From: an uncultured Armatimonadota bacterium
GTDB lineage: Bacteria > Armatimonadota > Fimbriimonadia > Fimbriimonadales > Fimbriimonadaceae
Length of the DNA stretch: 36,266 nucleotides
Direction: 5' to 3'
Assembly (NCBI GenBank): GCA_903833215.1
Contig: CAILEM010000138.1
Location: 1 to 36,266, forward strand
Shown here piece by piece: positions 1 to 32,531 of this stretch. Within the stretch, counting starts at the first letter, position 1, and each line of letters opens with the position of its first letter. The notes beneath the pieces were generated by a model, which was given only the letters and a program-made list of their open reading frames with translations, was not told the origin of the DNA and did no database searches. The position numbers were made by a program, and so were the translations under genes.

Positions 1-66
1 ATCACTCCTGAAGTTGGACCTGGTACCTACCAGAACGTTGGCATCATCACGGTTAGCCGAAACTAG
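1..66 (+). CDS. C-terminal end of an unknown protein (5' truncated by window edge)
   Basis: Frame 1 is open from the first base to a TAG at 64-66 and encodes 21 residues ending in TVSRN. The peptide is too short to assign to a family. A strong hairpin terminator lies 25 bases downstream, which supports this being the true 3' end of a plus-strand gene rather than a chance open frame. Function unknown. Confidence 0.5.
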   Translation: MTPEVGPGTYQNVGIITVSRN

Positions 67-91: not shown

Positions 92-136
92 CAGAAACGC
101 GAGGTCCAAATCAATTGACCTCGCGTTTCTGTGTTT
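92..136 (+). terminator. Intrinsic-type terminator after the truncated first gene
   Basis: A perfect 15-bp inverted repeat (CAGAAACGCGAGGTC at 92-106 and its complement at 117-131) encloses a 10-base loop and is followed by the short T-rich stretch TGTTT. The T tract is weak, but the stem is long and the position just after a stop codon fits a terminator. Confidence 0.75.
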
Positions 137-151
137 ACCGAACACCACCCG

Positions 152-561
152 CGATGATGCCTCCACCCGAAACGAAGTGGAGCGTGGAGGCTACCCATAG
201 AGTGCTCGGCAGGAAAACCTTCCAGCCCCCACCCACGTCGATGCCTCACGACTGAGGCACCGCCGAAGCCGTGAGGCTAAACGACAGAGTGCTTGGAAGT
301 CAAACGGCGCGTTCGTGTTCGAAAGCAGATGGTTCGAGCCTCCATGCTCCGCTATCGCTCCGGCTGGAGGCATCATCGCAGTTGGTGTTTGTGATGCTCT
401 TCCGGTCTCCCCCGAGAGCAGGAGGACTCACAGCCTCCAGGCTCCGCTATCGCTTCGGCTGGAGGCATCATCGCTAGTGGTGCTCCTTCGGACCCACCTC
501 CGATGGCTGGTCGGTCTCTTAGCCTCACGGCTTCCCCATTTGGCTCAAGCAGGAGGCATCC
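152..561. repeat. Cluster of five palindromic interspersed repeat units
   Basis: Five related units of about 40-58 bp lie in this gene-free stretch. Two are in plus orientation: 152-209, with arms GCCTCCAC/GTGGAGGC, and about 239-296, with arms GCCTCACG/CGTGAGGC. Three are in minus orientation: 335-378, 431-473 and 521-561. Each has a GCCTC...GAGGC inverted repeat with a 16-25 base interior, flanked by CGATGATG on one side; the plus units end in GAGTGCTCGG or GAGTGCTTGG. The same family recurs at 25058-25200. Open frames cross the cluster, but none resembles a protein, and they follow the repeat sequence. It is probably a REP/BIME-like structured DNA or RNA element of unknown function. Confidence 0.85.
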
Positions 562-765
562 TTGCTGGATGCAGATCGTCAAAATGTTGTCGGAAAGATC
601 AGAGCTACGTTTTTGTTTAGTACGTAGAAACTACCGGACGCCTAACTGATTGCCGTTTTAAGGCCGAATCGACCTCACATCCAGCACACTGGAGAGACAG
701 CTGATTTCGGCGCGGGTACGCTCTTAGGGCTCAAAGGCGAGTGGAATGACTTGACGTAGACAGTA
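562..765 (+). other. Intergenic leader upstream of the FNR-like gene
   Basis: This stretch between the repeat cluster and the reductase gene has no convincing coding frame. I see only small hairpin potential (for example CTACG around 605 with CGTAG around 625) and no recognisable riboswitch or clear sigma-70 promoter. It presumably holds the promoter and leader of the reductase gene. Confidence 0.3.
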
Positions 766-24955: not shown

Positions 24956-25057
24956 TGAGAGACAGTTTACACCCTCCAAATTCAACAACCCCCGTAGACG
25001 ACGTCTCCGCGGCGTCGTCCGGAATCGTGTAATGAGAACCCGCGACGGCCTCCCGTA

Positions 25058-25200
25058 CGATGATGCCTCCACCCGGAGTGAAACGGAGCGTGGAGGCTAC
25101 CCATCGAGTGCTCGGAGGGCACATCATGCTTTGGACTTCCGAAGCAGGCGGTTCACGAGCCTCCAGGCTCCGCTTTCAGCTCCGGCTGCAGGCATCATCC
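25058..25200. repeat. Second cluster of the palindromic repeat family (two units)
   Basis: The unit at 25058-25115 matches the unit at 152-209 over 58 bases with six differences, most of them inside the loop. A second unit in minus orientation lies at 25157-25200 and matches the units at 335-378 and 431-473. The two are head to head with a 41-base spacer whose right half (GAAGCAGGCGGTTC) resembles the spacer before the unit at 335 (GAAAGCAGATGGTTC). The cluster lies in the gene-free stretch 24956-25265, between the CBS start and the end of the metallophosphoesterase gene. That stretch otherwise holds only a 7-bp GACGACG/CGTCGTC hairpin at 24997-25019. Confidence 0.85.
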
Positions 25201-25265
25201 GTGGTTGGGATCTCCAGATTCGGGAAGTCGGTACGATCACCTCCGGCTTTTTCGGGGCTGGCTGG

Positions 25266-30948: not shown

Positions 30949-31007
30949 TTGTATGGTCCGTGCGTGCCCTGAAACCCAATGTTCGTCAGTTACATCGAAG
31001 GCAAGAA

Positions 31008-31023
31008 GCGAGGCACGCCTCGC
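31008..31023 (-). terminator. Hairpin directly after the lipoprotein stop codon
   Basis: GCGAGGC (31008-31014) and GCCTCGC (31017-31023) are perfect arms with a 2-base centre, starting 2 bases after the minus-strand stop, and are followed on that strand by TTCTTGCCTT. The very small loop and mixed T tract make this a moderate call; a DNA-level palindrome is possible. Confidence 0.45.
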
Positions 31024-31025
31024 CC

Positions 31026-32531
31026 CTACTTGCTGCCACGACGAACCGTGCCAGGTCCTTTGGGTGGAAGGATTGCAATCGCTTCTGCCGTGACGACGCC
31101 AGGGGTATCGCCAAGCGTTCCGCGAACCTTGACGACGGAGGAATTCGTGAGTCCAGCAAAGAACGCTGCCGAGTCAACGGTCTTCCCGTTAGCGTCTCGA
31201 TAAGTCGTTTTTGGCGTCGTTGCAATCGTCAGATCTGTGTTCACGTCTTGCCAGCCGCCGGTCCAACCGCTTAAAGTCAGCACGAACGTTTGGGCGGTCG
31301 CGTCAATCTTGGAGACACTTCCCTTCACACCAATAATTGGCGATCCAGAGGATCCACCCGAACTACCACTTCCGTCGCCACCCCCAACCATCGGAGGCAC
31401 GAGTTGAACAGAGGTGGCGGTGACAACCGCATCGGTAAACGATCCCTCCACACGGACCGTGCTCTTTCCCGGCACCAATGCCTTGAAGAACTCCTCCTCG
31501 GTGTCGGTTACCCCACCCAAATCGATAAACGTGGTTGTTGGTTGGACATTAACCGTCACCGTGGTCGAAGTTGGCTGGAAGCTTGAGCAGACGCTCAAAC
31601 TCACCGTAATCGTGTTCGAAGCTAAATTGGCATCGGTCACTAAGCCAAAAACCTCTGGTTTGGGTGGTGCAGGTGGGCCATTTTGAATGGTGACGCCTGT
31701 GGCGACAACGCGATTCGTGGTCGCGTCGAAGGCACCCGTCACCGAAACAAACGTTCCATTAACGAGCGTCGGATTGTCGCTGCCGTCGGCGTTGGTCAAC
31801 ACTGTCGAGGAGTTCGTCTCGATATTAATCGCACTAGGTCCGGCTTCCATCGCGATGACCTCGCCCTGCCCGAGTGAAAACATAAGGTTGGGTGCCGTTC
31901 CCGCAAGGTTGGTCACCGCGCCGAAGTACTCGCTGCCGATGACGTTGCCAGAGCCAATGTTGTCGTCACCCGGACCGCAATCGACGAACTTGCTATTCGA
32001 AGCGCTCATGGTGGCGCCGGTCAGATTCCAGTTAGCCGTATTGAAGTCGATCACAACGTTCTTCGGTTTCGTCGTGTTTTGCGGTGATTTGAACTTCGCC
32101 GTCAGCACCATCGAGGTGCCCTTCGCGCCCTCAAAGTTCGCAGCAACGACGTTCGAACTTCCCTTGGCTACCACCGACAACTTGCTCGCAACCGTGACGT
32201 TAACTCCGGTGTAAATCTGGCCGGATGACTTGAAACCTGACAGCAGCAAATATTGTTGGCCCGCCGAGCCGCGAAGGGAGAGCAGGTCAATAACCTTGCC
32301 TCCGCGCGCCGTGCCATCGTAAACAGTAGTAGATGCGCCCGATGCACTGACCAAGTTAACCTTAGTAATCGTGGTCCAAAGGTGATCGTAATTCGTGTTG
32401 GAAGCGTTCGTCAAAAAGACAAACGAGTTCGACGCACCGCCCGAGGAAGTTCCTCCTCCACCACCGCCACATCCGACCGCCAAAACCGCAATCGCCACTG
32501 CCCATATCCCAAGCATCAGTTTTCGGATCAT
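31026..32531 (-). CDS. Lipoprotein with DUF4382-like and DUF5666-like domains
   Basis: This 501-residue exported protein has a lipoprotein signal (LGIWAVAIAVLAVGC, modified Cys near residue 21) and a glycine-rich spacer. The N-terminal domain (about 40-200, with HLWTTITKVNLVSA and VIDLLSLRG) resembles DUF4382. Later parts (about 215-290, 300-375 and 400-490) look like repeated small beta-barrel units of the DUF5666 type (VFGLVTDANLASNTITVS; VKGSVSKIDATAQTFVL; VRVEGSF; VKVRGTL). A Gly/Ser linker lies near residue 390. These domains occur in surface proteins of unknown role. The ATG at 32531 is chosen because AGGTGG is spaced 8 bases before it; a GTG at 32543 is the alternative. It diverges from the AAA-propeller gene. 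Confidence 0.8.
   Translation of the reverse strand: MIRKLMLGIWAVAIAVLAVGCGGGGGGTSSGGASNSFVFLTNASNTNYDHLWTTITKVNLVSASGASTTVYDGTARGGKVIDLLSLRGSAGQQYLLLSGFKSSGQIYTGVNVTVASKLSVVAKGSSNVVAANFEGAKGTSMVLTAKFKSPQNTTKPKNVVIDFNTANWNLTGATMSASNSKFVDCGPGDDNIGSGNVIGSEYFGAVTNLAGTAPNLMFSLGQGEVIAMEAGPSAINIETNSSTVLTNADGSDNPTLVNGTFVSVTGAFDATTNRVVATGVTIQNGPPAPPKPEVFGLVTDANLASNTITVSLSVCSSFQPTSTTVTVNVQPTTTFIDLGGVTDTEEEFFKALVPGKSTVRVEGSFTDAVVTATSVQLVPPMVGGGDGSGSSGGSSGSPIIGVKGSVSKIDATAQTFVLTLSGWTGGWQDVNTDLTIATTPKTTYRDANGKTVDSAAFFAGLTNSSVVKVRGTLGDTPGVVTAEAIAILPPKGPGTVRRGSK

Follow-up and report, generated by a model that had tools for sequence, protein, structure and literature searches.

A GATG-tagged, REPIN-like repeat family in an uncultured Armatimonadota bacterium, with related hairpins beside RAYT genes of its relatives

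The published definition of a REP includes the 5'-terminal tetranucleotide GT(A/G)G (PMC3686654), and GTAG and CGTC are the two REP super-families that have been described (PMC3733652). The RAYT of E. coli needs tag and hairpin both (PMC8266576), E. coli genomes with REPINs but without a RAYT are known (PMC8049555), and the class 3 Y1 enzymes have a CnGA tag (PMC6006769). Here we describe a hairpin family from the genome of an uncultured Armatimonadota bacterium, encountered as an array near the start of a 36,266-nucleotide stretch of its DNA (hereafter the window).

Like the GTAG-type REPs, BIMEs and REPINs and their RAYTs (PMC3116915, PMC3733652, PMC3686654), this family consists of short intergenic hairpins with a conserved 5' tag that are present in many copies 3' of genes, that form tag-outward inverted doublets and two-subtype heterodimers, and whose kind of hairpin brackets RAYTs in relatives. 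Unlike them, it carries GATG in place of GT(A/G)G, tag-inside pairs are absent, and no cognate RAYT was found in this genome. A REP-like family with no linked transposase in its own genome is also known in the CGTC-tagged REPs (PMC3733652), but their tag and stem are different, and the relatives studied here do have a RAYT clade with GATG hairpins. The class 3 and subclass 2.6 Y1 transposases, with their atypical hairpin flanks (PMC6006769), offer another parallel as Y1 relatives with non-GTAG hairpins; a GATG tag is unmentioned for them in that work. Repeats also persist without a transposase in the RAYT-less REPIN populations of E. coli (PMC8049555), from which the present case differs in bacterium, tag and hairpin. 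We found no description of a GATG-tagged REP in the open-access literature; an earlier description is possible.

Anatomy, copies and arrangement of the repeat

Each unit is a hairpin of about 42 nt in which an unpaired (GA)TGAT lies immediately 5' of a GCCTC/GAGGC stem; we write the tag as GATG, its last G being paired. Its parts are, from 5' to 3', a head (about 13-17 nt, often ACCACC.G), then (C)GATGATG and the outer stem, and then a junction and the inner stem-loop, which varies. A tail of about 30 nt, of which there are three types, follows the unit. The outer stem is GCCTCCAG/CTGGAGGC, CCTCCAC/GTGGAGG or CCTCACG/CGTGAGG, and examples of the inner stem are GC-GATA-GC, AC-GAA-GT and GCC-AT-CGGC. 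GATG stands immediately 5' of CCTC in 104 of 108 units, a tag that rules out assignment to the CGTC-tagged REPs. Outside the outermost tags, conservation drops to background at about 13-17 nt.

The genome-wide covariance search proposed in an earlier note on this DNA was carried out with a model (R1, 42 positions) built from 81 units of this genome only. At E<=0.01 it recovered 110 copies across the 6.22-Mb genome, and copies therefore do exist outside the window. The covariation of the arms that the same note had reported for the window is confirmed in U1, U2 and U4 (Table 1), and pairing is kept across the genomic copies: 96.5% of the pair cells in the alignment of units hold standard pairs versus 86.6% in shuffles, changes on both sides account for 61 pair cells versus 10.9 in shuffles, and sliding the partner columns by 1-3 positions lowers pairing to 29-46%. 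The compensatory changes sit in outer-stem positions 13-15 and in the inner stem, the outer GCCTC/GAGGC being nearly fixed.

Table 1. Features of the window that bear on the repeat family
Feature	Positions	Strand	Description
Multi-copy gene, 3' end	1-66	+	stop codon 64-66
Terminator-like inverted repeat of the upstream gene	92-131	+	15-bp arms 92-106/117-131; immediately 5' of the array, outside the repeat family
U1	152-192	+	type B hairpin CCTCCAC...GTGGAGG, tail ATAGAGTGCTCGG; 63.4 bits
U2	236-278	+	type C hairpin CCTCACG...CGTGAGG; 49.1 bits
U3	337-378	-	type A hairpin with a single arm mismatch; 64.6 bits
U4	432-473	-	type A hairpin CCTCCAG...CTGGAGG; 69.3 bits
U5	521-564	-	type C, decayed; 24.2 bits, E 0.0066
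Second (inverted, convergent) pair, unit 1	25058-25098	+	64.3 bits
Second (inverted, convergent) pair, unit 2	25158-25200	-	56.0 bits

The window array does comprise five units of mixed orientation (++---), with its end at 564 and not at 561 as first given, and the second pair brings the units in the window to the seven originally counted. Of the two flanks that had been called fixed, CGATGATG is complete in U1, U3 and U4 but reads CGTCGATG in U2 and CAAGGATG in U5, and GAGTGCTCGG is restricted to one unit type, following U1, U2 (as GAGTGCTTGG) and the unit at 25058; the other units have different tails, for instance ACCACCTGCTT and GACCGACCAGCC. The folding z of the whole array is -8.0. That of the decayed U5 is -1.1 as RNA and -0.3 as DNA; an intact paralogous copy of U5 lies on contig C98. 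The array recurs on contigs C98 and C80 at 89% identity, beside a paralogous gene end and terminator. Most of the roughly ten paralogous gene ends share the terminator-like inverted repeat, and the slot after it holds a GATG array in three of them and a GTAGGGG-tagged doublet in five.

Other repeats are found close by. The second pair is bracketed by GTAG-tagged repeats of the family of the RAYT on contig C109 and by a repeat resembling the family of the C99 RAYT (24990-25023 and about 25228-25262), such that three REP families lie within less than 300 bp around 25058-25200. At 30950-31029 the window holds a GTAGGGG-tagged doublet from a family with 48 genomic matches, the likely RAYT of which is L221 on contig C134.

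The arrangement of units within clusters follows a strict rule. Among the 59 neighbour pairs in the 57 clusters of this genome, 27 are +-, 32 are same-strand and none is -+; without the duplicated arrays on contigs C80, C98 and C12, the counts are 24 +- and 0 -+ (p 1.2e-7). The layout is thus (+)n(-)m, and the tags, which are the GATG ends, always point outward. Same-strand units recur with a median period of 86 nt (sd 4.5), and convergent units have a median spacing of 100 nt (sd 3.7). A tag-outward doublet is present in 27 of the 57 clusters and 21 are single units, which show a trend only (p 0.19) towards the greater decay expected of remnants of doublets. Among the spacers listed, the ATAGAGTGCTCGG tail type meets the ACCACCTGCTT type in the majority of doublets, which are therefore mostly heterodimers. 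Three near-identical tandem units with matching spacers on contig C79 suggest local tandem duplication.

With respect to genes, nearly all clusters are intergenic, with two slight gene overlaps among 55 clusters according to home-made gene calls, which called only 77% coding and make gene distances approximate. Of 76 cases, 50 have the 3' end of a gene opposite the tag side (median 37.5 nt), and in a single case the tag side has a gene 5' end within 60 nt. Among the 28 clusters with one orientation only, the 3' end of a gene is found within 120 nt on the tag side 19 times and on the body side twice (p 0.0002), so that a single unit is read in the same direction as the gene upstream of it. Most clusters sit after unrelated genes.

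Transposase genes in this genome and in its relatives

The genome encodes four IS200-like Y1 genes, RAYTs on contigs C59, C99, C109 and C134, and one degenerate RAYT. Each of the four RAYTs is surrounded by its own GTAG-tagged hairpins, and three of these GTAG families have 78, 54 and 48 genomic matches. None of the seven PF01797 matches in the genome, RAYT or IS200-like, has GATG units near it, and none of its NF047646 matches is a RAYT of the GATG-linked clade described below. A gene bracketed by unit clusters on contig C36 was considered as a mobiliser and rejected, as it encodes Hsp70. Two further genes deserve mention in their own right. An IS200-like gene on contig C25 (L031, 1432-2107) lies between palindromes CCTAGGGCGATGCCCTAGG that are probably its own ends. 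The RAYT-like protein of L037 (2345-2851, minus strand; G000:C109:52124-52519) has no HUH motif that can be recognised (PDRTDLIF), occurs apparently as one copy in most congeners, and is possibly a domesticated relative.

The search for a REP-type (Y1) gene that the earlier note had recommended thus found none linked to the units in their own genome, but it did find RAYTs flanked by related hairpins in congeners. In G001 and G018, which belong to the same genus, and in G042, which belongs to the same order, RAYTs are flanked by GATGCCTCCACAG..., GATGCCTCGGGA... or GATGCCTCAACAG... hairpins with the tag outward. The RAYT on C33 of G001 has GATGCCTCCACAGTCGCACTGTGGAGGCT upstream and, downstream, a copy that is inverted and altered in its tag; that on C42 of G001 has GATGCCTCGGGATTC... 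at both sides, tags outward; several hairpin copies lie downstream of the one on C3 of G018; and the one on C11 of G042 is flanked by GATG-type hairpins, which could partly be terminators. Model R1 detects the hairpins of G001 C33, G018 and G042 at E 7.6e-6 to 7e-3, and the flanking hairpins share the tag and outer stem with the units described here and differ in their inner stems.

These four RAYTs and one on C116 of G009 form a clade of five members (support 100/99), in which RAYTs of the relatives are bracketed by GATGCCTC...GAGGC hairpins; the RAYTs on C59, C99 and C109 of the present genome fall in another supported clade. The G009 C116 gene lies at a contig end and has a degenerate hairpin only (GCTGCCTCGGG...CCCGAGGCT). 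Among 39 RAYTs, all four with an intact GATGCCTC hairpin are inside the five-member clade (p 6e-5, a rough value as the clade was noticed in the same data). The clade members of G001 and G018 exceed the NCBIfam cut-off for REP-associated tyrosine transposases.

Two other candidate links were discarded: RAYT L148 of G007 carries GTAG-type repeats instead, and a RAYT remnant on C62 of G009 is 1.2 kb from the GATG unit and has GGAG hairpins. GGAG-tagged hairpins also flank RAYTs of other clades in the same genus (L200, L203, L199, L194 and L220), and the tag type therefore seems to track the RAYT clade.

Matches to the family at E<=1e-4 occur in only two of 20 genomes of the genus, this one and G009. 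The 47 units of G009, which also has a member of the RAYT clade, are weaker and related. They pair GATGCCTCGACCCG...GTCGAGGCT with GATGCCTCAACCACG...GTTGAGGC, the convergent partners lying close together, and, unlike those of this genome, include -+ neighbours. In G018 and G001, which were sampled, convergent GATGCCTCGGG doublets also occur away from RAYTs. A public scan of 84,980 genomes, perhaps excluding records of this genome, returned four scattered single hits to the type-A core pattern in unrelated taxa, which is about chance level.

Origin of the family and alternative explanations

The first reading of the array as a structured RNA or a REP/BIME-like DNA element is supported in its second part, on the strength of copy number, intergenic sites 3' of genes, inverted doublets, a 5' tag, compensatory stems and the RAYT flanks of congeners, a structured RNA being possible as well; what does not fit a canonical REP is the tag itself and the lack of a linked Y1 gene in this genome. 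Set against the published definition (PMC3686654), the palindrome comes right after the tag, the copy number is high and the location almost purely intergenic, whereas the tag is not GT(A/G)G and a RAYT flanked by the repeat is found not in the same genome but in relatives with related hairpins. We rate the family as REP/REPIN-like but outside that definition: it is not a REP in the published sense, yet it works like one.

We consider it likely that these repeats form a GATG-tagged REPIN family dispersed by a RAYT, and that the cognate transposase has been lost here or is missing from the assembly, which is in 168 contigs and often broken at these repeats. The mobile form would most likely be the inverted doublet with both tags outward, a layout shared with the RAYT-bracketing hairpins of relatives, minus the gene. 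Because the ends of the doublet are those of the relatives' RAYT-bearing unit without its gene, the simplest explanation is that a RAYT works in trans on single-stranded hairpins. By analogy with the REP/RAYT system of E. coli, the RAYT, an HUH/tyrosine nuclease, would recognise the tag and the folded hairpin on single-stranded DNA and may then copy or move the doublet to new sites. Further same-strand units would arise through tandem duplication with the 86-nt period, and whole arrays through segmental duplication.

A more elaborate version is offered tentatively. GATG may mark a distinct RAYT-REP lineage that has a guide specificity of its own and is now orphaned in this genome, where sense units by stop codons are selected as mRNA 3'-end elements and the outward-tag rule reflects processing of a RAYT intermediate. 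It is plausible that the units serve secondarily as hairpins at mRNA 3' ends, and the sense orientation past stop codons fits selection against insertion elsewhere or an RNA function alike.

That the units are kept mainly as RNA, as mRNA 3'-end hairpins that block 3'-5' decay or aid transcription end and that spread via gene or segment duplication, seems unlikely to us. Such a function would suit their position right behind stop codons, with sense orientation in 19 of the 21 one-orientation clusters that could be decided, as well as the compensatory stem changes, the good folding as RNA and the duplication of some arrays along with a paralogous gene end. However, it predicts neither fixed tag-outward inverted doublets nor the likeness to RAYT-flanking hairpins, and most clusters lie behind genes that are not related. 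No structured RNA family described in Rfam matches the units, the window yielding tRNAs only, and no TTTT occurs within 12 nt 3' of any of 108 units, which excludes intrinsic terminators.

A route proposed earlier for CGTC repeats, mobilisation in trans without an enzyme dedicated to them, would here fall to the GTAG-type RAYTs of this genome; it is also unlikely. Four such enzymes are at hand and binding by some RAYTs tolerates tag changes (PMC8266576), but each is found with a GTAG family of its own, none is accompanied by GATG units, and the GATG hairpins of relatives go with a different RAYT clade. A MITE-type element, bounded by terminal inverted repeats and dependent on an ordinary DDE transposase, is very improbable: inverted ends do bound the doublets, and conservation reaches background soon beyond the outer tags, but no transposase gene was found bracketed by units in this genome, the gene between two clusters on C36 being the Hsp70 gene, such hairpins adjoin RAYTs in relatives, and single units and one-sided arrays are common.

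Experiments on RAYTs centre on GTAG-type tags, and a natural GATG clade offers a test of whether the tag guides the choice of cleavage site, as in IS200/IS605. Any model of REP cluster formation is constrained by the strict array rule, and the orphan population in this genome provides a case for studying why REPs persist in the absence of their enzyme.
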